Positions 5,575 to 58,400 of a stretch of DNA of 64,000 nt are shown in pieces. The notes under the pieces were generated by a model, which was given only the letters and a program-made list of their open reading frames with translations, did no database searches and had not been told where the DNA came from. Each line of letters begins with the position of its first letter. The first letter of the stretch is position 1. The stretch is from Golubevia sp. BC0850 (Eukaryota; Basidiomycota; Exobasidiomycetes; Golubeviales; Golubeviaceae). The DNA lies in assembly GCA_012976225.1 (NCBI GenBank), contig JAAVVG010000002.1:1364001-1428000 (forward strand). The letters run 5' to 3'. Position numbers and translations under genes: made by a program.

Positions 5575-7099
5575 TTTTGAAGTTGGTAGATTGAGTCAGG
5601 AAGTTGGAGAGTGCTTTTTATAAGGTGAGAGAATAGACAGAAATGTTCAAGCCTTTTGGGCCGAAAGAGCAGGAATCTCACACGACTGAGACGGAGACCT
5701 CGCGGGGAAGACATCATGCGCGATGATGTACTTGGTTGCTTCTATACCGGAAACTTGGGATCGATTCAAAGGGTCGGGGAAGTCAAAGGGAGGGGTAGAG
5801 CGGAGAGAGAAGGTCCTGGTTACAAAGCGCGCAACCCCTGATGCTCTCAAAGTAGAAAAAGACTATCCTCATCATACAGAGAGAATGACCAGGTAACATG
5901 GGGAATAGTCCCTCTGGATACACTTATGTCTGTGATGCGCTTTTGGAAAGGTCAAGAAGGGAGTAAATGAGTGAGGTGAGAGCAGCAAAGAAAGAAGTCT
6001 CGGAAGGTAGTGGAGGGTAAAGTTACCCTTGGTGAGCTCGAAACCCAGACAGAGAAGGTAAATATATATTTAAAAAGTCACTGAACAAGATCTGACAGAA
6101 GGGAAGCTGCCAGTTCAGGCGAAACTTTCTCCTTTTGGTCTCTTAGCTTTCCTTCTAGGGGGTGCTCCTTCAAGCTGTTCTCTCACAAATTCTCTTCTGG
6201 ATATATGGGTGTGGTGAAAAAATTGCATATGCTAAACTGAAACCTGAAGTTGAAAAGATGGTGAAAGTGGAGGGACAAGAGACAAGGTGTGGCATCTCAC
6301 CTTTGCTTCTTAGAGCTCACTCTATCGTTCTGGGGCACTACTTCTACTCAAGATGATTGAGTTGTATCATATTCGGAAAGTTGCAGGCCCTGTATTTCTG
6401 ATGGTATGTAGACATCTGAGCCCAAAGAAGTCACAACCAGCATCTTGGGTTTTGTGGTTGAGGAGCTAGGTGCGAACGATTGATGAAGTAGGTACTTGAG
6501 AGTCTCGTCTGGCTTTGCAGAAGGTTAAAAGAGATCGGCTACAAGGAAGGCTTTTGTGCATAGTGCCATACAGAACGGCAAGAAGGGGGGGGGGGTTCTT
6601 CTGTGTCAAGGACCTCCCTCTTCTTCTTCTTTGGAGGCCCACTTTATCCAGGGAGCTTTTGAAATTGAGCGATTTTCCTTCATAGAGTCACTTAGAACAA
6701 TGGAAGGGAGAGCTAGGGTAAAAAGAGAGGGGAACCCTGTTCTAGAGATCTCTCGCACTTCTGGCTAGTCCTTCGACCAGGGGCCTACGCACCTCTAGAC
6801 CATGCTGAAGGGTGTAAGCGGAGTAGAAATGATAAGAAATAGGGTCGAGAGGAGTGGTTAGGTGTGGGAGAATTTTTTTTCGAAGGGGACTGGAGGGGTC
6901 AAAAAGTGACCAAATGGAGCCCCAAGACCCAGTCTTGTTCAGTCTCTCATCCAAGCACCGCCGTGAGGCCGACGCTCTCCTCTTCCGGAATCGCGTTGTT
7001 GCCTGCTAGCTGGGTACACGTGACGTGACGCTGGTTGGTGATGAGGTCTTGGGCAAGACTACCACAAAGCCACACAGAGATGATCGTCGGCAAAAAAGT
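5575..7099. other. Gene-poor stretch
   Basis: No supported gene. It contains an AT-rich patch near 6060-6075, an 11-nt G run (6585-6595), and short open frames such as 6162-6356 and 6556-6768 without recognisable content. Sequence 5' of 7100 includes the Pol III terminator of the tRNA. Confidence 0.5.
7092..7097 (-). terminator. Pol III terminator of the tRNA
   Basis: Six consecutive T on the minus strand, two bases past the tRNA discriminator base. Confidence 0.7.
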
Positions 7100-7205
7100 T
7101 GTCCTCAGTGTGGATTGAACACACGGCCTCGGCGAAGCCGCTCTCTAGACTATTCTAAGGATCTTAATGCTTCAGTGCCACGCTCTCCCACTGAGCTATA
7201 AGGAC
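7100..7205 (-). tRNA. Intron-containing tRNA gene, probably tRNA-Phe(GAA)
   Basis: Acceptor strands GTCCTTA and TGAGGAC pair over 7 bp, with discriminator A at 7100. The D arm reads TAGCTCAGTGGGAGAGC (A box) and the T arm GTGTG-TTCAATC-CACAC (B box). The anticodon loop begins CTGAAG, giving anticodon GAA if the intron sits at the usual place one base 3' of the anticodon. Removing about 34 nt leaves a 72-nt mature tRNA. The anticodon stem is TGGCA against CGCCG, so the last pair (A-C) is a mismatch and the first is U-G. That, and the long GC hairpin inside the intron, make the isotype uncertain. A run of six T on this strand (7092-7097) is a Pol III terminator. Confidence 0.7.
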
Positions 7206-7548
7206 ATTTGCTTAATGGATGATGGGGGATCTCGAAATTGGATTTATGATTAATTCGAAAGGAGGCTGAGACTCGCCTACTTGGTGTCACTCATTCTCTC
7301 CCCTCATTCTGTTCTGACCACTCTGAACCCCAAAATGTGCTCCGATCGCCGTGAGACCTTTCATGAGGCCTAACCCAAAAACCAAGCATTAGAGGGAAAA
7401 AGGTTCAGAAGGAGTCTCAGCCTAGACGAAGCGGTCCTTCTAGTTTTGGAGGGTCTCACTCGCAGGTGGATGAAGACATCGAGATCGGCCGGCCTACTCC
7501 AGTTGGTGTCCTTTCTTACTCCAGAACGTCACTTTCGCCCTGATCAAC
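7206..7548. other. Stretch between tRNA and F-box-like locus
   Basis: No confirmed gene. From about 7421 a plus-strand frame beginning LDEAVLLVLEGLTRRW resembles the first helix of an F-box. It may be a lost or diverged N-terminus of the locus at 7549, but the frames do not connect simply. Confidence 0.35.
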
Positions 7549-9405: not shown

Positions 9406-11857
9406 CTAAGCGATGACATAATTCTCAGTACTCAAAACTGACTGCTGTGAGAAAACAGTTGGAGATTCAGAATCCACCTGTATAACATCAGCGACCTGAG
9501 ATGAAAAAAGGGTAGGAGGAGGAGAGAGAAAAAATCAACATCATGATAAATCTCCAAACTCCAAATCGTCTTTCTGAAACTCACCTCAACCATACACATA
9601 GTCTGTTGACTAACGAAATCCACCTTAACAGGATAGAAAACATCATTAACGGTAGCACCATTTGGAACACTGAATTCCAAATTCCCACTCTCATTAATTT
9701 CCTTTGAAATCTCTTCAATTTCCCAAATCACCGAATTGGAATTCTCATCATAAAACCAATTCCCTGGATTCTCTTCTGGATTTTCACCAACCCTAGGTAA
9801 TTCAGGTGAAGTTTCCATTGAATCAGGTAAAGGGATTTCAATCTTAACATTTTTTAAAACTAAATCTTTATTTTCCAATTCGAAATCTAAATTCAATTCT
9901 GCAGAACCAGTATCATCGCCACTTAAAGAAGGCCAACAATTGATAATCAAAGGTAAAAATGTTTCATCTTTAGAATTGAATCTCCATCTCAAAACTGGTA
10001 GAGTTTGATTGATTGGGAATGGTTTTTTAGAATCTTTTAATCCTATGATTCGATTTGATGACCATAAATTCTTATCAACATGAGGATGAGTCTTATAAAC
10101 CGCTTCACCAGAATTGAGAATCGATTTTGAAGAAATCGGTTTCAATTGAATCTTTAATTTGGATTGATTTGGATCTGAAACTCTTAATTCTAAGATTCCT
10201 GAAATGTCTAAAGATGAAGCTCCACCATCTCTAATCCCTGTCATTGAAACTTTTTCCTTGACTAGAAGATGTACGCTGAGAAGATTGTGACGGGAAGAAA
10301 GAATGGGGAGGGGTATGAAAAAGAGAAGGTCAACCAAAACTCATCTCGACTAGTTTCCCACCCATCCTTCTTGGATTCTCTGACTCACCTCTCCTGATGA
10401 ACTGAAGGTAGATAATCCAGAGGATCGGAAGCAGCAGCAGCTACTGGAGGTCTAGAAACCGGAGCAGGATTAGATGCAGGTTGTTCAGGTCCAAGAAGAT
10501 CAACTTCACTTGCATTAGCAGAACTATCAGGAATTGACATTGCTCCCAAAAGTTCTGAATTCTTGGATTTCTTCCCAAGTTGCATTCCTTTTGATTTGAA
10601 AGGTTTGGAAGAAGGAAGAGCGGGTCTGGGAGATTATAGACAAAAGAGAATCAAAGAGAAAAGGGTGGGTCAGTTCTAATCTCTTATCTGTCATTAAAGT
10701 CCACATGTCCTTCTAGTTTGATAAAAGTAGGATTTTTTCGAGTATTACTCACTCTTCAACTCCAGTATCTCTGACTCCATCGAAGCCACTACTAGGGACA
10801 GAGGAATAACCAGAATTGGTGGAAGCTCCAACAGTACCGAATCCTCCACTGTTACCACTTGGTACTCCGCGACGACCTGCATCTCTTCTTTGCATTTCTA
10901 ATTGTTTGGCTCTACGTTTCAATTCTTCCTTGGCTTCCAGTTCTTTGTTCTGAGGTAAAAGGGGGGGGAGGATTGCAGGAAAGGGTTAGAGAGGAGCCTT
11001 TGGACATCTTTTTCAAAAGAGAAGGGAATCCTTCTAGTGATCAAGCTCAAATTCAAACCAAAGCCTATCAATCCTTCTTAAAAGGCGAAAATAAGAGCTC
11101 CATGCATCTCAAAAAGACATCTACCAATCCTTCTCGTCCTGCCCCCCAACTTTTATTCCTTTTAATCTCTTCTAACAAAACTCACCCTCTCAATGATTTC
11201 CTGTATCTTCTCCTCATGACTTTCCATTTCCAAAATGCTTCTAATCTGTTGTAGATTGACATTCTCTCTATAACCCATAGCAGCGATTTCATCAAAAGCA
11301 CCCAACAACTGAAAGGCATTCCTAGAAATCTCCCTTTCATCCAAAGTCTTACACATATCTGAAACCAATCTACTAAATAGATGTAAGGAATCGATGTCTT
11401 GAAGAATGTTTGAAGATTTGTTGGTGATTAGAATCATGTAAAGATCTTCTAAAGGTTGATAGACGTAACGAATCGAATCGGTTTCAATGGTGGTATGTTG
11501 TGAACCTGAAGTTAAGAGTTTTGGAAAGGAGGCAAGTAGTGCTTCTACTCGTGAGCGTGGCATTTCCCGGAATTGCCGTGAGATGACGGCTGAGAGATGC
11601 AGATGAAAGAGGTTGGGCAGGTTAGAACGAGGGAGACAGTTAGGTTGAGATGATTGATTGAAGAAGGACTTACGTTTTCCACCTCTTGTGCATACTGAAG
11701 CTGCTAATAGCACCTGTTAAAATCGTAAGGGAATAGTGATGGAGTAGGTGGGAGCATAATTGGTGATGAGCTGGATTGGATTCAAGAAGATCGGGCCAGG
11801 TAGCTGGTCCTCGTGAGATCCTGGTCGGGTTGACCTTCAATCGGGTGTGCTTACCAT
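9406..11857 (-). CDS. RET2: Coatomer subunit delta (delta-COP)
   Basis: Subunit of the COPI F-subcomplex, needed for retrograde Golgi-to-ER traffic. The first coding exon is just the ATG (11855-11857), followed by GTAAGC; exon 2 (11674-11713) gives VLLAASVCTRGGK and exon 3 starts VISRQFREMPRSRVEALLAS, matching the N-terminal longin-like domain of delta-COP. The middle is a helical KELEAKEELKRRAKQLEMQR segment and a Ser/Gly linker. The C-terminal half is a mu-homology domain (RVHLLVKEKVSMTGIRDGG, WRFNSKDETFLPLIINCWPS), ending with FSQQSVLSTENYVIA. Length is close to the family's usual 520 or so residues. At least five introns. Divergent from HRP1 across 165 bp. Identity is very sure. Confidence 0.95.
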
Positions 11858-12022: not shown

Positions 12023-15000
12023 ATGGCCGACGAAGACGATTTGTATTCTGATCTTTACGGAGATGAAATCCAAGTGAACCCATCACCTCCACCTGAAGAT
12101 GAACCCTCAACCAAAGATGAGGCCTCAACTTCAACTGGATTACCATCCTTCATTCCAGGTGGCGCTTCTTACGTTGCGCCAGCTCCAAAAGATTCAAACA
12201 ATAGATTAAACAATCAATCTTACAACAGAGGCAGTCAACAGCAGCAACGTGCTTCTTCCACTTCTTCCTCATCTTTCATTCCACCTTCAACCTCTTCTCG
12301 TGCTGAGACTTCTTCCTCTTCTTCTTCCTATAACAATAACAACAACCAATCCAACGATTATTCAAATCAATCCCACGATAACAACAGAGATAGAAACAAT
12401 GGAGGTGGTGATAGGAGCAATACTAGAAATCGTGGTTCAAATGGTCCAAACGCTTTGTTCAATCAAGGAAACAAATTCTCTGCGGGAAACAATGATGGTC
12501 ATAGAGATAGGAATAATAGAGAACCTAAAGAAATCCCAGTTGAAAGCGTTGGGTTGTTGAGACCTCATGAAATGCCTGATGATGGGTGAGTAACAACCAC
12601 AAGAAAAGGAGGTGTGACGAGTCTGGAAGAGAGAGAGTGTGTCAGATCGACCTTTGAAGAATGGATCGTCATGGGAAAAAAATCCTCAGATGACAGCAGT
12701 GGATAAGGTGTCATATGGGAGATTCTGGAAGAAGGGAGTGAGAGAGTTTTCACTCTCGACTCTCTCTTCCTTCGCTCAGTGCCCCTTCTACTGAATCTTC
12801 AAATCAAAGGTACCACTCTTAAATCATAGTAGAATATCTTTCGAAACTATCTAGAAATCAGCGCCCCCTGTCTCTCTTTCAGAAGAAGTCTCTGTCAAAA
12901 GAGTTCCGTCGTTCCTTTACTAGTTAATTACCAAAAACAAAACCAAAAACATCGAGTATTATAGGTTCAGAAACCTTTCAACCACTAAATATCTATCATG
13001 AATAGCCTCTTCCTATTTCGTTGCTTTCTCTTCGCCTTCCATTTCATCCTCCCTTTTCTGTTGCTCGAGTCTTGCTCTTAAAGCTTTAGCTTGAACAAAG
13101 GATAATTACAATTTAAAAACAACAAGCTAAACAAATAAGGTACTAAGATACTATACTAAATCCTTAACGATCCTTTTCTATTGACAATTTGATGGGAATA
13201 TAGATGAGCGTTTTCTTCTTTAAAATCTAACTGGGGTGGAATGAGAGAATGGAAGTAAGAGAAGGTCCACGAATCCTCCTTCTGGCGAAGGAATGCCAGA
13301 AGAGGAGGGTCATCTAAGTCTCTTCGGAAACATTTTATCCTCGTGCTCGAGAGACCCTTCAAATGAAGGCTCTTTTTGTTTCTCAAACTTTCTACTTTCT
13401 TCACTTCCCTTGCCTTGTCCCTCCAACCACCAATCTTGTTTCCCCAAATCTCATCCTTCTCTCCTTTTTCTCCATCTTCGAAACCCCTTCTCCTTCTCCC
13501 TTCTCTTACATCTCTTTCTCAGAAAAATCTTCGTAGGAGGTTTAGATTGGGCTACTACCGATGGTAAGAATATCAGAACTCAAAAAACATCCTCCAACCC
13601 TCTGAAGACTTCTCTTTCTCGAAACCAATCTTACCAACTCCCCCCCTTTTTTTTCTCTCCTTTCGTTTTGCAGAAAACCTCAAAGAGTACTTCCAACAGT
13701 GGGGAAAGGTCAATCATGTAACGATCATGAGAGATCCAGGAGCCAAATCTCGTGGATTCGCCTTTTTATGTTTCGCAGATCCATCAACTGTTCAACAAGT
13801 TATGGGCAAAGACCATTATTTGGATGGAAAGGTTGTGAGTATTTCTTTCATTTTCTATTGTTCACTCTCAACTTCTCAAGTTAATCAAGGGGTCGGTCTG
13901 ATAATTCTGTTGTCTTGTCCCATCTTCTTTTCCTTCAGATTGACGCAAAAAGAGCCATCCCTAGACCAGTGCACGCTAAATGTTCCAAGATCTTCGTAGG
14001 AGGAGTTCCAAATCATGTCACAGCAGACATGTTCAGAGAATTCTTTGGTAGTTATGGAACTGTTACGGAATCGACTTTGATGATGGATAAGGATACTCAG
14101 AGAACTAGAGGTTTCGGTTTCGTGACTTTTGCTGAGGAAGATGCTGCTGAGAATTTGATTGCTCAACAACCTCTTGACATGGAGGGGAAGTCTGTGAGTT
14201 GCTTGAGAGAAGAGAGAAAGGTTGGAGAGAAGAAGCAAGAGTTAGAGAATGTACTGAACCTTTTTCATCTCTTTTTTCTTCGGCAGGTTGAAATCAAGCA
14301 CGCAGCTCCTAAATCTGAAAGGGATCCAACAGCAACGCCAGGTTCAACAATCTTTCAAAGAGGTGGAGGTTCTGGTGGAACTAGATCTGGTCAAACTTAT
14401 GATTCAAGAACTGGAGATGCAGATGATAACAGGAGCTCAAATTCAAATCAAAGAGGAAATAACAATCGAAATCATAACACTATGGATATGAATCAAATGG
14501 GAGGAGGTATGGGAATGATGGGAATGGGTGGAATGGGAGGAATGGGTATGATGGGAAACCAATTCGATCCTCAAGCTATGGCTAGAATGTTTCAACAAAC
14601 TGGTTGGGGATCTCAACAATGGAATCCTCAAATGCTTTGGCAAATGAATCAAATGGGAATGAATGGAATGGGGATGAATGGAATGGGGATGAATGGAATG
14701 GGGATGAATGGAATGGGGATGGGCGGAATGGGTGGAATGAATCATCAAGGGATGATGGGAATGGGTGGTGGATATGGAAATCAAATGGGAGGTTATGGTG
14801 GTCAACAAATGGGTGGAATGAATATGGGTATGGGCGGGATGAATCAAGGTGGAATGGGAAGTATGTCTCCTCCTCAACACCATCAACAACAGCAACAACC
14901 AATTCAACCTCAACCTCAGCCTCAACCTCCTCAAATGCAACAGCAACAACAACTTCCATCTGGAACGACAAATACAAACAACGCAGGTGGAAGGAAAAGA

Positions 15001-15330
15001 ATTGATTACTCTAACTTGGACAACTATCAGATCAAGACTGAGAATAAAAACGATCAGACTTCAACTCCTCCTAGTGGTTCTAGAGGTCCAAATGGACTTC
15101 CTCCAAGACCTACTGGAAATCTTCCTGGAAATGGTAGAGCTCCTCCTCCAGCTCATTTCAATAAGAAAGAAGATGATGATACTGTTATTGATGTTATGAG
15201 TAGAGGTAGAAGTAGCCTTAGCAGATCTAAGAGTCCGGAAACTGCAAGAAGATTGGCTGGTAGAGATAGAGAGAGAAGTCCGAACGCTGTCAAGAGAGAA
15301 GATGATGGTGGCAGAGCTGACAGAAATTAG
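12023..15330 (+). CDS. HRP1: Hrp1/Nab4-type two-RRM mRNA 3'-end processing factor
   Basis: Nuclear RNA-binding protein of the Hrp1/Nab4 (cleavage factor IB) family, acting in poly(A)-site choice and mRNA export. Five exons (12023-12585, 13523-13563, 13674-13834, 13939-14193, 14287-15330) sum to 688 codons including the stop. Residues 1-187 are Ser/Asn/Gln-rich. RRM1 (about 188-265) has KIFVGGLDWATTDENL and KSRGFAFLCF. RRM2 (about 272-350) has KIFVGGVPNHVT and RTRGFGFVTF. The C-terminus is Met/Gly-rich with four perfect MNGMG repeats, then a Gln/Pro tract and a basic RS-like tail with a second basic patch. Intron 1 is 937 nt, far longer than its neighbours, and may carry a cassette exon. Family is sure. 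Confidence 0.93.
14659..14718 (+). repeat. Four perfect 15-bp tandem repeats (MNGMG)
   Basis: ATGAATGGAATGGGG repeated four times head to tail in the HRP1 C-terminal region, in frame. Identity at every base suggests recent slippage or unequal exchange. Confidence 0.95.
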
Positions 15331-19903: not shown

Positions 19904-20435
19904 CTTGAAGGAAGGCAGGAGGGGAGGGGAAGAATACGTAGGGGAGGAGAAGGTTGGTGGGCTTAGAAAGCCATCGCTGTCGATTGGGCTTTTAAATCTG
20001 AATATCCTCTCCCCACACAAAGTGACTTCATCTTGTCGAAGTAGGAACCCGTGCAAAACTCCGGTCAATTAAGAACCATTTTTGAAATGAGAATGATCCT
20101 CGTCTGCGCCACTTCGTGAGAGGAGCGGGTATCTGATTCGAAGCTAAGGATGCGAGCGGCTTCTGGAGTTAGAAGGAGGGCAGAGATAGCATACCTCCCC
20201 TGTCCCTACAGAGGGAGGGCATGTTGAAAAAATGTCTCTTAAGAGAGACCCAATTTGATGTTGAAAGTTGAAAGAATGAAGAGCCTTTCGAGAGAAAATT
20301 TTGAGAGTGCCGTGGAGAATCGCTGCGAAATAGAGAAACAGAGCGAAGAAAATCCAACCTTCCACCCACCACATCACAAGTCATCAATTTCCCATCGTAC
20401 TGCTTTCACGTTGGATTCTCTAACTACCATCAAAC
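19904..20435. promoter_or_regulatory. Divergent upstream region, peroxidase / antizyme
   Basis: 532 bp between two divergent start codons. No gene seen; a short open frame at 20144-20387 minus has no ATG-led coding signal. Must contain both promoters. Confidence 0.5.
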
Positions 20436-22266
20436 ATGAATTCTTCAAATCAGTCCCACAATCCTAATCCGAACCCCAACCAGCTTGAGACATCTCAAGC
20501 TGGTTGGGCTTCCACTGCCGAGAGCAACAGCAACTCTAACTCTTCCAATTCTACAATTCATCAATCTATTTCTCGTGCTACCATGCGCGAGTCTTCTCTG
20601 AAGAAAAGTAGCGTCGTCCGTTGGTGGGGGTGGTGAGTGTACCATGCTGCAAGAGTGCAGTCGAACTTCTATGTACTGATCTGGACATCGATGCTCTCTC
20701 TTTCTTCTCTACTCTTCAGACGTCATTAAACAAGAAAAAGGTCCTGTGAATCAAATCACAGGTCGTCATGATCCTGTGACAGGGGACATGGCTCAAGATT
20801 CAGATTCAATTACAAATGCTTCATTTTCAAATCACCCTTTACCTTCTCTACTTCTAACTTCAAGATCTGGATCTAGATCTAGATCGCCGATCTCATCTTT
20901 CAATTCTCTACCAAGTTCTTCAAGTCAATCGGTTCAGATCCCTGCACCCCAATTTCAAGATGGAGTTCCAATCTCTCCTCCTTCAACTCCTCCTACTTCT
21001 CCTAGAGCCCTACCAATTCAAACTTCAATCTCTCCTACAGCCTCAATCATCAATAATTACGAATTCAATCCAAACGTCAGCGTAATGGTCAGAAGTTCAG
21101 GTGGAAGAATGGTGGATCATAAGAGTGGCTCGGGATCGGATTCCGAAGTCGTTGAATCTCAAAGTGAGATCAGCGCAGAGGGAGGTGCTTCTTTGGTAGA
21201 AGATGGCTACGGAAAGGAGGAAGATTGGGAAACTTATGGGCAAGTCAAGCAGAATGGAAGGAAGCTCAAAGGAAAGGGAAAAGAACAGTGCGCAGTAGAC
21301 CTCCTTTCTGCAACTGCTTCAAGAATGGGAACAAGTTCAACTAGGAGCTCTCATCAGGCATCTGGTACTCATTCTACAGCTTCGATCTCAGGAACTGAAA
21401 GTGACAAGTCATCGAACAATTCAGCCGCAGAAGAGGAGGAGGGAACAGAACACTTATCTGATCTCGAAGAGGAAGAACAAGTCACTCAACTTTCCCACCA
21501 ACTTCTTTCATTCTCAAGACCAATCAGTATGCCAGATACTCCAGCTGCAACTCCGGAATCTCTTCAATATGCTTCAATTGGAAGATCTTCTTCAACTTCA
21601 ACTTCATCTTTCCCATCAGGACCTCAACTCGAAGTTTCCCATAGACCTACTTTTTCAGCTAGAGCTTTTATGGTTGAACTTTTCCCCGCATTAGAAGACA
21701 AACTGTTTTCTGCCAGAGGGAATGGAAAGAGTAAAAAGAGTAAGAACAGAGGATTAAAAGAAGGATGGCTAGCTGAAGATGCAGGAGTTGAATTAATCGA
21801 AAATTGTCATGGTTGGAGAGGTGCAGTTTTAGATAGAAATGGTGCTGTCATGAGAAAAGCTGGTAGGGGAGATTCGGAGAAGAGAGTTCTATACGTTTCT
21901 ATGCCACTTGGAAGTGGAAATAAGACTAGTGGTGGAATTGAACCTCAATCGAATTTGAACAAAGAATCAACTTCAAGTAACCTTCAAACTCCAACTACTT
22001 ATCAATCTTCAGCTTCTTTAAGAACTACAGTACTTTCCTTGTTGGATTTCGCTTCGGATTCCCTTCATCCTCCTTGTGGAGCTTTAGTGCTTTCTATCGA
22101 GAAGGGCTTGTTGGCTAATGGAGAATTACCTGGACTTTTACATGGATTATGCTATGTTGGTGGAAACGTGGTTAGTTTTAATGGGGAGAAAGAAGAGGGA
22201 AGCGAAGAAGGTGGGGCTGGGGAGAAACCTAAGGAAGGGGTGGTATTGGTTAGGATCGAACTTTAA
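20436..22266 (+). CDS. OAZ1: Ornithine decarboxylase antizyme, programmed +1 frameshift
   Basis: Antizyme binds ornithine decarboxylase and sends it to the proteasome when polyamines are high; synthesis needs a polyamine-stimulated +1 shift at the end of ORF1. Exon 1 (20436-20632) ends ...GGG TG; intron 20633-20719 (GTGAGT...TTCAG); exon 2 starts with A, so spliced mRNA reads GGG UGA C. Frame 0 stops there after about 65 codons. Shifting +1 gives GAC GTC ATT AAA and opens a frame through to TAA at 22264-22266; spliced coding length is 3x581+1, as expected for one skipped base. The last 200 or so residues match the antizyme core: VELFPALEDKLF, WLAEDAGVELIENCHGWRGA, VLYVSMPLG, LSLLDFASDSL, ALVLSIEK and LHGLCYVGGNVV. 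The middle is Ser/Glu-rich. S. cerevisiae OAZ1 shifts at GCG UGA C, a close analogue. Confidence 0.85.
20743..20783 (+). promoter_or_regulatory. Hairpins downstream of antizyme shift site
   Basis: CCTGTGA (20743-20749) and TCACAGG (20756-20762) form a perfect 7-bp stem with a 6-nt loop. A second CCTGTGA (20773-20779) could pair with the same TCACAGG. It lies about 22 nt 3' of the spliced UGA. A role in stimulating or sensing frameshifting is inferred. Confidence 0.4.
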
Positions 22267-24915: not shown

Positions 24916-27900
24916 ATGAGCCCTAAATCCTCACTATATCAGCAAACCCGACCTGAAACACAGTCACCGAACCAGACGACGTCAAATCAAGGAGGCACAG
25001 GAAATGGTGGAGCTGTTGCAGCTCACCCAGCACTAACTCGAAATCTGGTGACTTCAAGTCAAGTGGTGAGATTGAAGTACGAAATAGCTTTTGCTACCAG
25101 CTACTCTGGTAATTATGAGCCGTGAGTAAGAGAGAAAACGAAGGACGGGATTGCATTGCGCTGAGATGTTGAATGATGGATTGATAAGGATTCAGGTTGG
25201 ACACGCTCTGACAGAACTGGTACTGGATAGGTGTGCCAGCTGAATTTGAATTAAGAGAACATTGTTTCATTAAAGTGGGCAAGGATGTCACAGCTGTTCC
25301 TTTGTTCGGGATCAGAGACTATGTCTTCTGTCCCTCAACCTCTCTACCTTCCTTCCTTCTCCTCTTCCCCAATCAGACACAACATCATACACGACAAACC
25401 ACACGATCTCACTTCAAGGTGGTCTGGTGCAAGCGTAGCTGCTATGCCTGCTGCCTCAACTTCAGGTATGAGCGTCCCTTCCACTTCTACCTCAGCGAAC
25501 AACCCAACGCCCTCTGCTTCAGGAAGTGGAAATGGAGGTAGCTCCCCTTTGCTTTCTGGAACCGATGGTTGGACCAACACCTCCGTCCTTCTCAACAGCG
25601 GTCGTGCATCTGGATCTGGAACTCCAAATTCGACTGGAGGGAGAAACAATTCAGCAGCTAATCAATCATCTCAAACCTTCCTTAGCAATGTTCAAGGTGG
25701 GACAACTGGGAGTAGCTCTGCTAGTAGACAGTACATCATACTGAAATTGGAGAAGGCGGCGGTAGTCCGTGAGTTTCGAGATAGGAGAGGGTTGGGCTTG
25801 TTCGAGAGTTTCGGAAATCTCATTTCTTTCCTTTGCCCCTTCTTCCGCTGTAAACAGAAACCATCACCTTCGGAAAGTATCACAAAGGTTAGTCTTTCTC
25901 CATTGGAAGTCGGAGAAGGAATTCCTACTGATCTACGTTCGATCCCCCTCGCCCCAAATCGCAGCTCATCCTTGCAATCTACGTGACTTCAAAGTCTACG
26001 GAGCCTTCTCTCTGCCTGCCCTTCTTTCTAACGAGACGGAGGAGTATCTAACTGAAAGCTCTTCCTCAGCAACCGGGACCGAGAAAGGAATTCAAAATGC
26101 AGTGGCCATCAGTGGAGGATGGATCAAGCTTCTTCGAGGAGGACTTCGAAACGACAGCATTCCGGAAACATTCGCTCTGAGATGGAAAGACTCACAGGGA
26201 GTAGCTTTCTCAGTGAGATACATCAAGTTGGTTCCTCTAGCCGCTCATCAACCTAACTACAACTTCTCAGTCTGGCACATCTCCTTGGCTGGAGTCATCG
26301 AAAGCAAGGTGGTGGATCAAGTTTGTAGGGAATGGAAACAATACAGAGAAACGATGGCTACCAGGTTGATTCTGAAACACCTCAGGGCTAGTGGACATCA
26401 TTCTGCTTTCTCTATGCTGCTGGAATCAAGTGGTTTAGGGAATCCGGAAACTTCAAGCCTTAATCCCAATTCTTTAGCTCGGGGTTACAACACCTCTCCT
26501 ATCAACAGACTATTCGAACACCCTCTCCTACAATCCCTCTACGACGCCCTTTGTCGAAGAGGTGCCTGGGATGAGGTAGAGCAATGCTTGGAGAGAGCAG
26601 CTTTGGGAGACAATGGTGGAACCATGGATCATTCAATCGATCAACCTGCCTCAATCACTTCCGATCCTTCTTCATCCGACCAACCTCTCTTCTCTCACTA
26701 CGTCCACCTGACGACTCCTCGTACCTCTTGGTCTCAACTCTTCGTCACTGACGCTGATGGAGATCGACCTTCTGGAAGAGGAGGTCATCAAACAGTCTTC
26801 GATCCGGATCGAGGAATACTCTATCTCTTTGGAGGCTGGGACGGAAGAACGGATCTCTGCGATCTTTGGGCGTATCATATCAACGAAAGCAGATGGAGAT
26901 GCATCTCTTACGATACCCGTATTCAAAATGGCCCAGGTCCTCGATCCTGTCACAAGATGGTCTTTGATAGGAGAACTGGCTTCATCTACATTCTCGGTCG
27001 ATACCTAGACTTCGAAAAGGCTCAGGAAGTCTCTGGATCTGGATCGCCTTTCAATCGAAGCGGAACGCCAGCAGCAGCAGCAGTTGGGTCTTCTCCTCAG
27101 GTGAGCTCAGACGATGCCTCTTCCGCTGCCAGGACTGCCCGTAGAACCTTCCTCCCTCCAGGCCCGGGATCCAGTAGAGAACAGAGCTCCGAAGAGCTGT
27201 TCATCTCTGGAAGAGGCGGCAGCACGAGGTTAGGAGTAAGCGGTGGATCAGGACTTAATCCATCTTCTCGTCTCAATCCGTCGAGTGGCACTGGGGCCAA
27301 CTCACCTTCGCAGCAACAACGATCCAGCAGTCCTTCTGATAACTCCACCTCCTCTGCGAGAGCTGCTGCATCTGCTGCCCAGCCTCCCGGTCGATTCGGA
27401 GTAGAATCGGATTTCTTCTGCTTCTCTACTAGGAATGAGAGATGGACGTGTCTCAGCAACGACACTTCCACTGATGGAGGACCGAAGCTGCTCTTCGATC
27501 ATCAAATGGCGATTGACTCCGAGACTCAACTCCTCTACGTCTTTGGAGGAAGGGTCGTTCATCACGATCCAGGAAGAACTGAGCTCTCAGGAATGTGGAG
27601 ATACGACGTCATTCAACGTAGCTGGACTTTCCTCTTCGACGACGATTCGTGTGGAGCTAGGGTTCCAAGCAGAACAGGTCACAGCATGCTGCTGGATTCC
27701 AACCCAGGCTTTGGATCGGGAGGAAGACAAATCTGGATTCTAGGTGGTCAAAGAGGAGACGCCTATCTAGCAAGCATGTACACCTACAATCTATCCACTG
27801 GAGCTGTCAGAGAAGTCTCAAGAGACTATTCTGCTGATGGACCGGAAGGAGGGTTTACTCAACGAGTCGCCATCAACCCCAACGCCAGAGAACTCTATCT

Positions 27901-28963
27901 TTTCAGTGGTCTAACTCCAACGAAGAAGATAGGTACCGAATTGAAGAACTCCTTCTGGATGTACAAGATCGAGGAGGCCAAGTGGTCTCTCATCTACCAA
28001 TCCGCTTCTTCCAGAGAGGAGGAACGAAGTCAGAACGCCAGAAACGACGACGAAGAGACCACGACGTCACCGCCGCCTTTCAGTGGAGGTACTGGTGGAA
28101 CTTCTTCTTCAAATCTGGATCCAGGTTCGGATGATTCTTTTGCTTTCTTCCCCCGATCTCCAGAGCCTAGGCCAAGATACGCGGTTCAGATGGTTCATGA
28201 CATCAAGAACGCGTGCTTCTATCTTTTCGGAGGCAACCCTCTGGATGGGCAATCTCCAGATCTACGCTTGGGCGACTTCTGGAAGATGGACCTCGTCAGA
28301 CCGACTGCCAACGAAGTTCTGAGGAGAGCTCAGTTCAAGGTCAGGAAGCAGAGGTTCTTGGAGATGGCTAGTCAAGCCAAGAGTGCAAGCGGGGGGCTTT
28401 TAGCAATGAACGCTTTGGTGTACCTTCAAAATCAAGTTGGCAGCTGCGTGGATCATTCAAATGAAACAGAATCTACAGCTTTCAGGAAATTGATGACCAA
28501 TCTCTTTGGACAAGGAGAAGGAACTCAAGACCAAGAGATGCATCAAGGTGAAATCTCTGATCCAGATCCAAACAACACTCCTAAAGTTCAAAAGGTTCAA
28601 CCTTCCCTACGCTCACCTCTGAGCGACGACGATGATGGTCTTCCAGATGACGACGAAGATTCTGAAATGCTTTCGATCTCTCAAACCCTGCCTGCTGGAG
28701 AATCTGGCCAAGGAGAACGTTCAGGCAAAATCTCGCCTGCGCTTTCTTCTTCTGGATCTAATCAACCGACCAGCTCGAATCAAGCTTTCAGTCAGCTGCT
28801 GATCAAGGCCAGAGGAGAAGGCAAGCCAACAGATCTTTACTCTCAAAGAGTCGCTCTCTTCCAAGACCTTCTGGAATTCTTCCCACCTTCTTGCACTCAA
28901 CCTACCGACATGTCCTTGAGCGACTGTATCGAGTTCGGGATGACAAAAAAGGTGACGGATTAG
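24916..28963 (+). CDS. Muskelin homologue (discoidin-LisH/CTLH-Kelch)
   Basis: Muskelin is a Kelch protein that in animals joins the CTLH (GID-type) ubiquitin ligase. The N-terminus has the muskelin discoidin-like domain: LKYEIAFATSYSGNYEP, YIILKLEKAAVVR, then a GKYHKAHPCNLRDFKVYG stretch across an intron. A LisH/CTLH-like helix follows (LILKHLRASGHHSAFSMLLE, HPLLQSLYDALCRRGAWDEV). Six Kelch blades run from about 26730: GGHQTVFDPDRGILYLFGGW, SCHKMVFDRRTGFIYILGR, FDHQMAIDSETQLLYVFGGR, TGHSMLLDS, QRVAINPNARELYLFSGL and YAVQMVHDIKNACFYLFGG. The C-terminus has QRVALFQDLLEFFPPS, typical of muskelin. A low-complexity insert of about 120 residues breaks the Kelch repeats (27030-27400). Roughly 1,200 residues, larger than the animal protein (735), mostly through disordered inserts. 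Confidence 0.93.
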
Positions 28964-29334: not shown

Positions 29335-32300
29335 TTAAGCAGCATAAGGAGCTACAAGAGTTGGACCGCCGTTTTGTTGATCCATTGGTTTCTCTTCAGG
29401 AACACCGACATGCATTGAGTCGAGCAGACCTCCCACGCTGTAAGAGTTTGGAGTTGAAGCTTGAGCTCCACTGATCTTCCTGGAGACCCTTCGACTGGCT
29501 CGTCGATCAGTTCCAGAATTCATACTAGCACCTGAAGCGCTAGTTTGGTTGGTATTAGAGGCGTAAGAACGAGATCCAAGAGCTTGACGTAGGTCATCGA
29601 CTCCAACTCCACGTTCACTCTCATCGGCTCTCGATAGAGAGACTGCAGAAGGGTTCCCGGTACGCTGAGCAGGAATAGCGGCTTGCTGACCCTCTTCGTG
29701 GTATGGAGAAGCACCGATGAAGGCTAGAAGGGGAGGTATGGGGAGAGGAGTAAGAATTGGATGTCGAGGCCACGCAAGGTTCTGCTCTTGAGACGGAGAC
29801 TCACAATCATCGACAGCAATCGAGACAGACCAGTCTCTTCCGAACCACTGCTTGAGTGTAGCTTCGTCTAAAGAAGTGGAAGATTGAATCTTGTTGCATC
29901 TTGAGAGAGCGTCCACGACGCTCTTTCCATCGACCAAGGGAAAAGTGGCTGCGCTACCTTCTCCATTTGAAGAACCAGAGAAAGGAAGACCGGCTGCTCC
30001 GACGGCAAGCTCTTCTGGGGCAGGTGGCAGTTCTCCGAGGGAGTCTGAGCGGATTTGCTGAGAGCGGAAAGATCAGGGAAGAAAAAGGTGTTAGAATTTC
30101 TGCTGGCTTTCTTCGTGGGGGAGACAATTCTCTAATACTCACTCCACTTCCGACGCCAGACAAAGAAGAGATTCCCCAGACTTGAGCGATCTTTGAGTAA
30201 GCCCTAGAGATGACAGCACGAGTTGCCAATCTACGTTGACCTTCAGCTCCACTGGAAGAAGCAGAAGAAACCAATCTGCTTCCAGCATTCTTGTCTAGAG
30301 CGATGATCATTGGAACAGTGGCTAGAAGAGCGGGGACTGGAGTCTTCTCTAGCATCTCTTCGAGTAGAGAGGCGAGAGCTACGTAATCTAGAGGAACTGC
30401 CGAAGTGCTTGAATCGGCAGCTAGAGCTCTTCCTTCGTCCGCATTCGATCGATCGATGATTGGGAGAGCTTCGAGTGGACTTTCTCTGACAGAATTTGGG
30501 CCATAGAGGGTCTTGCTCAAGGCAAGAACGTAAGCTGCTGCAGAGAACGAGTGACCGAATCCAATGGCGTCTGCACAGAGTTGAGCTCCAGTGTTTCCAC
30601 CTAGGAACTCTGATTCTGAAGAACCTCCTGGGTTGACCTCGGTCTTGAAGTAGGATAGAAGGACTTGCTCATACATCAGCCTGACAGTTGCGTTTGAGGA
30701 AGCTAGGAGAGCTGCAGTCTGTGCGAAGACGTCAGGTGTGATTCTGTTCCTTGTTCCAGCACGAGCTAGTGCAAGACCGTCTCCAGCTGAACCCTTTCCT
30801 TTCTCAGCAGATCCGTTGTCGACAGCCTTTTGGACCTCTCCATTGGAACGATGAGCAGAGTTCATGACTCCGTTCAAGCAGAAGAGCAGAACTCGGATAC
30901 TCTCACTCTTTTGCTCTGGACCTGAAGTAGTAGCAGTCTGTTTCCTTCCTCCATGAGCAGTTCTGGCAGTCTCGGCTGCGTCGACCTCTGGAAGTTGAAG
31001 AGCTACAATGCGAGCGCAGATCTCTTCGGCGATGTCGTTGATTTGATCAGCGTAGTAAGTGTGAGTTCCCAGTCCACTGACACACTCGACTAGAGAAGGT
31101 AGAAGAACGTCGCGAGTATCTTGATGAACGCGACGAACAGCTAGACCGACCAAGTTGTTGAGAGTGTCTGAAGTACTCAATCCGATGAGACTCTGCTTTC
31201 CAGTAAGGAGAGAGTGAATCATGCCGATCAGAGTTTGATGCTTGGCCAGAGCTGGACCATCGCAGGTCTCCACCAAGTGCTCGACTAGAGAGGAGAGGAC
31301 GACGAATCGGTATTGAAGAGCTGACCAGCTTGAGAGAGCTCCGGCGAGCCAGCAGCACCATTCCTTGTTCTCCCATTGAGACCCTTGGCCAGTTGACTTT
31401 CCATCTAGCCAATTCAAAGCAGCAGAGACAGTTGCTTGAACGTGAGAAGCGTCTCCGTGGCTCATGAGACCTTGAAGAGTTCCGATTGAGGCTGAGGCTA
31501 CGTCTTCAGAAGTAGGTCCTTTCTCTCCATCGACATGTCCGCGGATTGATGGAGCGCGACGAGAGTCGACTGGACGACGCTTGATAGAGAAGGCGGCTAG
31601 AGATGGGGTTCCATGAGCTGCTTTGGAGGTCTCAGAGTCCAGGAAGTCCAAAGTGACTTGGCTCTGTTGAACGTTGGACAATAGAGCTGGAATGATGACT
31701 CCGGCTTGCTTGACAAAGCTGGTAGTGTAAAGTGCATCGGATCCTACAGCTCCGGAAAGAGCTCCAATTCCGATTAGACGATTGCTAGAGGAAGTGAAGC
31801 GGGGAGAGGAAGGAGAGGTGAGATGAGTGTGGAAAGGAGCAGCAGCTCTTCTGATCCCTTTGAACCCTTCTAATTTCCGTTCAAATTTCCCCGCTCATCT
31901 CCTATTCCAATGATCATTCTAATTGCAAGAGAAGAAGCTAACTCACCGACTTTTCTCTTCCTCATCCTTCCCACTCTTCTCCATTGCCAGCTTGGAGAAC
32001 TGGGAGAGCAAGTCTTGATAAGTCCTACCCAAATCTTGATCCAACGAGGTAGTAGCAGGATCAGTGAAAGTGGCTAGAGCGTAGAAAGTGCTTGCAGCAC
32101 GGGCAAAGAGCTCTTGATCTCTTTGACCATTTGGACTACCTGTGGAAGCTGCTTCTAGACCGGAAGCAATAATGGCTTGAGCTGACTTGTGAAAGTAGTT
32201 GAGCTGACGTTTGCATTCAGTGATCAAGTACTTTGTAATAGCTAGAGTGACCATGAGTCCACTGTGCGAGAGGAGGTACATGAGGAGAGATGAGCATCTT

Positions 32301-55456: not shown

Positions 55457-58400
55457 TCAATACTGACGCTCGAAGAAGTACTCATAAGCCCTGCCAGTGT
55501 CGAGAAGGAGATGAAGGCAAGTAGAAAGGAGTTAGAGCCAGTAAGAGAGGCGATGCCTTCTGAGGTTCAGGTACTCACAGTTTCGAAAGACCTTTGACTC
55601 CAACGTCTGCTTGAGCAACGTCCGCTGATTTATCTGAGGATACAGCTGTTGAGAAATGAGCTTTGACGACCTGGCGATCGAGAAGGAAGAGGAGTGAGAC
55701 GTGGAAAAGAAGGTCAGCCTTAGGTCTAAGTTGATGGGCGATAGCATAGAAGACTTACCTTCTCGTCGCTGGAAGAAAAGCAGAAGCGAAAGGAGACGAA
55801 GGAAAATGTCAGTATAGACCGATTCGTAAAAGAGAACCTTCAAAAGAATCTAAGACCCAAAATGCAGCTCACTTGAAGAACACCCAAGCATTGTCTTCGC
55901 CTTGGACATCGCTTGGCTTGCGAATGTGAGCAACGTACTGCAGAATGGAGATATGAGAAGAGAGCGAATGAGCACGGAAGTCGTCTTGACTTCCAGGGGA
56001 GGTAGACTTACGTGACCACTATGAACGGAAGGCTGCGAGGAAAAGGAAGCGGGTGGAAGTAAGATCGAAGAACTCCAACAGGCAACACTTCTAAGCTATA
56101 GACTCACTCCTTTGTGAGATACGAAAGACTTGATGATATACTTAGCTGGAAGATTAGAAGAACCTCCGACTACTTTGCTCTTTTCTCCCTCACCACTTGA
56201 AGGCCCAGCTGCGTCGACATCCATTCCAGGCTCATCTCCCGGATCACCTGAATTCTCGAACAGCCAGGCGACAGCGATTTCTGGATTGTTGCCATTCAGA
56301 CGTAAAGCCTTCGTAGCTTGAGCTTTGGTGAATCCCATTTCCTCCAGCATCGACGTGTCTGGTCCAGCGGCTTGAGCACTCGAAGATGAAGTGAGAGCTT
56401 TGAAGTCGATTGGATCATCGATGTCTGCATCTTCCATGTGAGAGAACAACCAGTTCATAGCTGCTTCAGCATCACCAGTGTTTCCAGTAGCTAGTAGAGC
56501 TCTTTGGCAGCGAACCTCTGGGACTGTGAGGAAGAGAGAAAGCGACAAGAACAGGAGACGAAGACTCAGCAGACGTTGGGAGATTTTGACGACCTCGCTG
56601 ATATTACTCACATCCCATGCCAGCCAGCTGGGCCATAGCTCCTTGATCGAACTCGATCTTCTTCTCTTCTTCCGCCGCCTCTGGTAATTCCACCTCATCG
56701 TCCCTCTTTCCAGTTCCAAGATACTTGTCGAGAGTGAAACTTTCGAGAGGTACTTCGATTGGAACATCGACCTTTTGAGGAACCCAATTGACCAGTTGGA
56801 ATCTCCTAGCTTGAATTGCTAGAACTTCTGGGAAAGAGGTGAATAGGACTTGCTTTGTTGCGACTACGTTCTTCTGACAAGAAGGACAAAAGTAATCTAG
56901 AGCTTCAGGAGAAGTGAAGATATCCAAACATTCCAAAAGCGAGACTGGCTCGTAAGTAACCTTTTCTGGATCGGAGGAAGTGTTTGAGGTTTCCTTCGAA
57001 ATTGATTTTCCTTTGTCTTCAGACGTTAGTTCAGCTCCGTTTGTCTTACTCTGAACTCTTAGAGGAACTGGTAGACTTAAACCTGCTTCTTGAGATTCGA
57101 TAGTGTAACGAACTTTCTTGCAATCGGTACACTGAAGTCTCTGCTGTAAACCAAAAGAAAAGAGCTTGGTTGGGTCATTGGTTGGCGGGGCTGAAGACCC
57201 TTGAGCTGAAGATTCTGTTTCCAATCTCTTCGAATCTCTCTGAAGAATTGAAACTAAATGTTTAAAGAATTCGTCGGCGTCTTGCTGTCTCATTGTAGAG
57301 AATTCCTCATGACCTTTTCCGATTAAAGCCTTAAACATACTTGGTCTAATACCTGCTTGGAAGATAGGACCTTCCTTTCCTTCGGCGCCAGCGGCTTCTG
57401 CTGACTTAGGATCCACAGCTCTAGGCACTGCATATCGACCAGATAGAAGTCCATCTGCTAGCTTTCCCATCTGACATTCAACGCAAGAAGCTGGAAGAGG
57501 ATTGGAGCAGGAAGTAGTGTGAGGAAGATAGGCGTCTAGATACCTCGCCTGGAAAGCTGGAAGGGAGAACAAGGTCTGAAGAACGGAAGCCATGTAACAG
57601 CTGTTTCCCAGGTTGCGAAGTCCAGTCAAAGCAGGTCCGAATAGAGGTTCCAATTCCTTTCCATCTTCTCCAGTCATGTTGAAGTCAAACTTGAGGTTCT
57701 GCTCGAGTTGAAGTTCCGTCATACTCTTCTCAGTCTTCGAGAGGTCTATGACGTTGATATTGAGATGCTTGAGATGTGCTGCTAGAGAGGGATCGATTCT
57801 AGCATCGTTACATGGGTAACAGTAGATATCGGCAGTTCCTTCCGCTGTGATGGTTCCTTGTTTGACGCTGACTGGATGTCCAGATTCTTCGAAGTGTGTC
57901 AATCCATGACCGTTTCCGCTAACTCCTCCGAATTGAGCTCTTCCGCATCCCAGGTTTCCGCAACTGATAATATGGATTGGAGAAGAAGGAGAGGATTTGT
58001 CAGTCTTAGACAGGGAGACGAACCCTCGAAGAGATGAGACCCACGTCAGGCAAAGCCAAAGATTTGAAGTCTGTCAGGAGAAGGGTTGAATACGGTGTGA
58101 ATAGTCCATCTCAGGGAAGCGAAGATAGGGCATAAGATCACTTCAGAACCTACCAAATCGCACTTGCCACACTTGGCCAAGCCTGGGAGAAAGGAGGAAG
58201 ACTGGGTCAGCAGAAGCTCACTCAGTCAAGCTGAGTCTCATTTGATCAGCACAACTCACCACCTGCTTCCATCTTTGTTGCTTCTCCCAGCTGCTTCAAC
58301 TCCCTAGTGTGTTGACAAGGCTCAATTTCTTCTTCCCAGGCTTTGACCTCAGATTGCTGAGACGAGGACAGAGCTGTCATCATTCCTTTGATGACTTCTT

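Follow-up and report, generated by a model that had tools for sequence, protein, structure and literature searches.

The window (the whole 64-kb stretch of DNA that was analysed) very likely carries a gene for an ornithine decarboxylase antizyme, closest to those of basidiomycete fungi, in which a +1 frameshift would take place at a UGA stop codon split by an intron. Very probably, the sole recognisable intron of this antizyme gene interrupts the recoding stop itself. Antizyme holds polyamine synthesis in check and regulates itself. Recoding sites are commonly regarded as a fixed property of the gene; here the stop would arise only through splicing. Gene finders working frame by frame on DNA would therefore miss it, and splicing would have a direct bearing on a feedback circuit that is conserved from yeast to mammals. 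The gene would also allow one to see, in a natural setting, how genes recoded at an early stop put up with introns and escape nonsense-mediated decay, and with GGG_UGA_C it contributes a candidate to the list of shift sites. None of the titles, abstract openings and passages compared, which do not extend to the main antizyme survey, describes an intron within a recoding stop, although specialists may well know of the arrangement already. That survey of antizyme genes, by Ivanov and Atkins in 2007, speaks of close to 300 cases in its title.

Layout of the locus

The probable antizyme ORF1 occupies exon 1 on the + strand (20436-20632) and consists of 65 codons (MNSSNQ...VVRWWG) followed by the UG of its stop. 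It starts with the ATG at 20436 and closes with CGT (20619-20621), TGG (20622-20624), TGG (20625-20627) and the putative shift codon GGG (20628-20630), after which the TG of the split UGA (20631-20632) abuts an 87-nt intron (20633-20719, + strand). This intron opens with GTGAGT, bears a branch-like CTGAT at 20676-20680 and ends in CTCTTCAG, its 3′ end being pyrimidine-rich (CTTCTCTACTCTTCAG). The first base of exon 2, at 20720, supplies the A of the UGA, and the exon opens with A CGU CAU UAA. The probable antizyme ORF2 (20720-22266, + strand) runs in the +1 frame from GTC at 20722 to TAA at 22264-22266.

Across the inferred junction the spliced mRNA would read CGU UGG UGG GGG UGA CGU. Frame 0 of this message yields 65 amino acids and ends at the UGA, beyond which the message is open in the +1 frame only, giving two ORFs joined by a +1 step at the ORF1-terminal stop, as deduced from the frames of the inferred spliced mRNA. 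Skipping one base at the UGA would lead to a 580-amino acid product ending at the TAA at 22266. An earlier note on this DNA had placed an intron within the UGA, with exon 1 ending in GGG TG and exon 2 beginning with A CGT, and both the reading frames and the splice-site scores given below agree with it. The same note held that splicing makes the +1 site GGG_UGA_C, which the frames of the inferred spliced mRNA bear out, and that the spliced length amounts to 3x581+1 with one skipped base, which matches the 1744 nt computed from the ATG to the TAA at 22266.

Four ATGs (16, 8, 69 and 63 codons; 20221-20467) precede the ORF1 start, if they lie within the transcript, and the frames of two of them overrun that start in another frame. 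Elsewhere in the window, Pfam matches mark neighbouring ORFs for an adaptor medium subunit (9435-10244, - strand), an RRM protein (14029-15327, + strand), Kelch repeats (26354-28960, + strand), EFR3 (29957-31465, - strand) and a ubiquitin C-terminal hydrolase (56607-57722, - strand).

Evidence for the intron

Splice sites were scored with a model built on intron-like sets from 88 kb of the same genome, with the intron at 20633-20719 left out. These sets were picked by a GTRNGT donor, a pyrimidine-rich acceptor and CTRAY, and the donor scores therefore favour that consensus by construction. In this model, with its built-in preference for GTRNGT, the donor at 20633 scores 11.67, compared to 2.42 for the runner-up in 20441-20719, while the acceptor of the 87-nt intron scores 8.29, compared to 3.26 for the runner-up nearby. 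The medians of the intron-like sets are 10.7 for the donor, 10.0 for the acceptor and 84 nt for length; the acceptor thus falls below its median, although it is clearly the best nearby, and the 87 nt of the intron lie close to the median length. A donor at 20624, which would create CGU_UGA_C, was rejected, scoring 2.42 and losing the UGG UGG.

The genome yielded 38 intron-like sets, the UGA-splitting intron included, compared to 11, 14, 7, 9 and 4 in five Markov resamplings, and part of the 38 is therefore due to chance. GTGAGT is the commonest donor among them (19 of 38) and is 3.6-fold enriched among ORF-bridging pairs when repeats of one donor are kept in the count. On both strands of the window 420 intron-like pairs were identified. 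In 35 of them the junction becomes a stop codon, and a single pair, the one described here, combines such a stop with an ATG-started ORF of at least 40 codons before it and an open +1 frame of at least 100 codons after it. The spacing of the 3′ RNA element described below is right only once the 87 nt are removed, which lends independent support to the junction. At the level of sequence, it is confirmed that donor and acceptor are the best of the region and that the arrangement exceeds what chance would be expected to give.

RNA signals around the shift site

The identification as an antizyme leans on RNA anatomy more than on protein, and we think that the UGG UGG, the stem in ORF1 and the two-stem 3′ element, none of which the earlier note names, form the best independent evidence for it. 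The UGG UGG (20622-20627, + strand) lies directly 5′ of the shift codon and resembles module A (cf. PMC5009743; PMC4505036), so that in CGU UGG UGG GGG UGA one UGG stands two codons upstream of the shift codon. The first half of ORF1 contains a hairpin of 15 perfect base pairs with a 4-nt loop (20475-20508, + strand), located 119 nt upstream of the shift codon and reaching -30.3 kcal/mol when a 42-nt stretch is folded alone. It is the only perfect hairpin of at least 13 bp with a loop of 3-12 nt in the window and, its own complement aside, surpasses in stability every other one of the 9136 56-nt windows scanned.

Fold prediction places a candidate 3′ stimulatory element of two directly adjacent stem-loops at 20741-20792 (+ strand). 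In the spliced mRNA it would begin with a lone pair 21 nt after the UGA (pair probability 0.52-0.67), followed by a 7-bp stem at 23 nt, close to the spacing of about 19 nt that marks such elements, with a shuffle test that is weak: the fold of the 89-nt 3′ region stands out only slightly (z -1.72), and 15 of 200 shuffles are equally good. Over four sequence contexts, stem 1 has a pair probability of 0.99-1.00, and stem 2 reaches 0.69-0.99 in its outer and 0.35-0.50 in its inner part. A scan of 282 windows along the spliced mRNA gave the seven lowest energies to the ORF1 stem and the 3′ element, with best values of -31.4 (z -8.9) and -23.7 (z -3.84), respectively. By z-score the 3′ element ranks tenth of the 282 windows and is outranked by a weak fold within ORF1 at about -95 to -77, counted from the end of the UGA (-11.6 kcal/mol; z -5.9 from 60 shuffles), which is not known to match any described signal.

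The tetranucleotide AAAU does not abut stem 1 of the 3′ element, which is preceded by AAAAAGGU, and is found solely 5′ of an alternative stem; the gene is for this reason not counted as a full member of the structured set. The region 20743-20779 of the window holds CCTGTGA, TCACAGG and CCTGTGA, the middle copy of which can pair with either flank. An alternative fold of TCACAGG with the second CCTGTGA was rejected at a pair probability of at most 0.01 in four contexts, and a role of this repeat as an RNA switch is possible, though energetically unlikely according to the fold models. Rfam returned no antizyme RNA family for 20400-21200, the one match (Xist_exon1, E 0.65) being due to chance.

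Protein evidence

The protein evidence for an antizyme, as judged from the predicted sequence, is thin but specific. All three C-terminal fragments of ORF2 that were searched match the Pfam family ODC_AZ (PF02100) with 16.6, 17.5 and 17.6 bits (E 0.0075, 0.004 and 0.0037 over 24,736 models), below the curated cut-off of 24.2, and they match no other Pfam family. The best-matching stretch, at 17.6 bits likewise sub-threshold, lies at 21982-22182 (+ strand). With these sub-threshold matches and the RNA marks, the proposal of the earlier note that this is a probable antizyme gene gains support.

Other searches returned little. Searched as a whole, ORF2 yields nothing in Pfam at E up to 1 and nothing in NCBIfam; a phmmer search with a segment of human antizyme gave 321 rows from 385 ORFs at E up to 1000, none of them ORF2; and a PDB sequence search with the C-terminal part of ORF2 gave a single irrelevant match (E 1.6). 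AlphaFold single-sequence models reached a pLDDT of 36.1 and 34.5, too poor for use. The search of the organism's own genome with PF02100 returned nothing and recovered 0 of 14 controls as well. Relatives were sought by pattern in viral contigs (9 matches) and prokaryote genomes (83 matches), with none confirmed in either. A single match to PF02784, the ornithine/arginine decarboxylase family, occurs in the genome and presumably represents the target enzyme of the predicted antizyme. A degenerate copy of the 3′ end of the antizyme gene occurs at about 1473-1622 of the 3-kb locus L002 (C61:737601-740726), which also holds a tRNA-Ser gene. The copy is partial, 76.6% identical over 158 nt to window positions 22063-22220, and looks like a pseudogene fragment.

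Alternative routes from ORF1 to ORF2

The possibility that ORF2 is not an antizyme and that the frames meet by accident, through a pseudogene, a sequencing error or some other gene, draws on the weak similarity of ORF2 to antizymes in Pfam, NCBIfam and phmmer, but is very improbable given that ODC_AZ is the sole Pfam family matched, that several antizyme RNA marks stand at near-published spacings and that a junction stop flanked by long frames is unique in the window (1 of 420 pairs). The frames could also be joined by splicing with no shift at all, if the donor GTTGGT at 20620 or GTAGCG at 20608 were used with the same acceptor. Both joins are open in frame and are two of the 91 donor/acceptor pairs listed for shift-free joins, GC donors and weak sites included, and GTAGCG, with 4 pairs and a ratio of 2.53, shows no depletion among ORF-bridging pairs. 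Against this, GTTGGT is depleted (1 pair, ratio 0.14), the two donors score -0.52 and -3.44, compared to 11.67 in the model that favours GTRNGT by construction, and shift-free joins would erase the RWWG context, so that little probability attaches to this route. The two listed shift-free joins from the GTGAGT donor need acceptors at 20916 and 20925, which score -0.36 and 0.59 in the same splice-site model. Nor is it at all likely that ORF2 belongs to a separate gene or isoform with a start of its own: an in-frame AUG at 20788 would open 492 codons, but such a reading leaves the ORF1 stem, the UGG UGG, GGG_UGA_C and the 3′ element without a role, and the two-ORF antizymes known need frameshifting (PMC5009743).

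Proposed mechanism of the shift

In the reading preferred here, a +1 shift at the intron-split UGA, splicing would build GGG_UGA_C and present GGG in the ribosomal P site with UGA_C in the A site. The ribosome would then either terminate at the UGA and release the 65-amino acid ORF1 peptide, or slip by one base, from GGG to GGU, and read on through GAC GUC AUU... to complete the 580-amino acid antizyme. Re-pairing from GGG to GGU keeps two G-C pairs, which makes P-site slippage plausible. The UGG UGG, the ORF1 stem and the two-stem 3′ element probably stimulate or tune the shift. We infer that the message is actually spliced and shifted in this manner, that polyamines raise the yield of the shift as in other antizymes, and that the 580-amino acid product should bind ornithine decarboxylase.

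It was also considered whether GGG lacks a tRNA of its own. The genome holds three loci for tRNA-Gly with anticodon GCC and one with UCC, whereas none of the 14 pattern matches for tRNA-Gly(CCC) held a tRNA according to ARAGORN (a looser pattern gave 235 matches); the T-arm of the CCC pattern suits no more than 7 of the 13 nuclear tRNAs compared, and the lack of tRNA-Gly(CCC) is therefore a hint only. In 15 mechanical ORFs, ORF2 among them, GGG accounts for 50 of 6727 codons (7.4 per 1000). Among the best candidates listed, every tRNA gene that ARAGORN identified outside contig C42, which we take to be mitochondrial, carries an intron of 22-55 nt. Such intron-bearing loci are found in genome G000 at L012-L016, L018-L021, L023, L025-L030, L032, L002, L069 and L075, and in the window at 7098-7206 (- strand); under default settings ARAGORN named a single tRNA across 17 such loci, and for the window it named none.

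Expected consequences of splicing within the stop

If the intron is retained, frame 0 reads GGG UGG UGA and stops after 66 codons, so that such an mRNA would give only a 66-amino acid peptide. A +1 shift at GGG or UGG would run into the UGA at 20677-20679, within the branch-like CTGAT, and a +2 shift would stop at 20749. The earlier claim that retained-intron mRNA cannot enter ORF2 at this point holds, since the +1 and +2 frames are both closed, and this way of producing antizyme would therefore depend on splicing.

Fungal introns are mostly spliced constitutively. Constitutive splicing is the default expectation here as well, and it is likely that the placement of this intron is neutral or set by constraint and involves no splicing-based control, an explanation that is compatible with the proposed frameshift at the split UGA and accounts for the sequence equally well. 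The splice sites look ordinary in the splice-site model, and exon 2 holds no GTRNGT donor, compared to 1.9 expected, a difference that is not significant alone. Constraint could come from mRNA surveillance. Antizyme mRNA is raised in Upf2 mutant Drosophila larvae, as given in the available portion of PMC1756896. With an intron far downstream of the early ORF1 stop, the message could become a target of nonsense-mediated decay; an intron within the stop leaves no exon junction behind, which may explain its place. Direct counter-evidence to constitutive splicing was not met with, yet an intron-retaining mRNA could not make antizyme at this site. That retention varies, for example with polyamines or stress, and acts as a second switch on the antizyme circuit is an unlikely prospect; were it so, the recoding site would be present only in a controlled fraction of the mRNA, and the retained form would represent an antizyme-off state yielding the 66-amino acid peptide.

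Comparison with known antizymes

The antizymes of Coprinopsis cinerea and related basidiomycetes (Yordanova et al. 2015; PMC4505036), compared on the basis of the text of that article, are the closest counterparts of the frameshift gene proposed here. Like it, they comprise two ORFs with a +1 shift at the ORF1-terminal UGA, and module A adjoins their shift site, some non-Agaricomycete basidiomycetes carrying UGG in place of CGU at the E-site codon, where UGG is also found here. For 34 Agaricomycetes and one Dacrymycete that text reports a stable stem within the first half of ORF1, with 14 bp and at least 30 kcal/mol, located 106 nt 5′ of the site, compared to 15 bp and 119 nt here, and two adjacent stem-loops begin 19 nt 3′ of the site, compared to about 20 nt here. 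The same text describes AAAU abutting stem 1 in all of the structured basidiomycete sequences and UUU_UGA as the shift site, whereas this gene has no AAAU at stem 1 and employs GGG_UGA; the word stems intron and splic are absent from that text, whereas an intron lies in the UGA here. Agaricomycete antizymes combine UUU_UGA with a nascent peptide of the YYYSTTFSGG type, given for Ganoderma in the accessible part of PMC9604110; with GGG_UGA and SLKKSSVVRWW in their stead, the present gene is not classed as an Agaricomycete antizyme. According to the same part of that source, the GlAZ gene of Ganoderma lucidum is also a basidiomycete antizyme with a +1 shift and has a GT-AG intron in one gene model; its shift sequence, in contrast, is TTTGA, and the place of its intron, unstated there, could be the counterpart of the one described here.

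Introns are present in the antizyme gene of Drosophila, Oda, as well, but the change of frame is described in its second exon (PMC4528330, in the portion available). Another fungal case, PaYIP3, is represented by cDNAs that differ from the gene only by a 5′-UTR intron, as stated in the accessible text of PMC3777964, and the antizyme finder OAF is described in the text available of PMC2375905 as working on spliced or intronless sequence.

The OAZ1 gene of Saccharomyces cerevisiae (GCG_UGA_C) shares UGA_C with the present site and, like it, has a shift codon that is neither UCC nor UUU, as far as the available part of PMC12661321 covers it, and both may place in the P site a codon that lacks an ideal tRNA, for which there is a hint here. 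The shift at GCG, however, appears to proceed without re-pairing according to that part of the source, whereas GGG can re-pair to GGU, and OAZ1 is further distinguished by inhibitory control through its nascent peptide (PMC5009743). Mammalian antizyme 1 employs the shift codon UCC and has, 3 nt from the site, a pseudoknot on the 3′ side (PMC5009743), unlike the gene described here, but its ORF1 ends in RWCS-stop, close to the RWWG-stop of this fungal gene, and both have, two codons ahead of the shift codon, the UGG that is strongly conserved, though not universal, among antizymes (PMC5009743).
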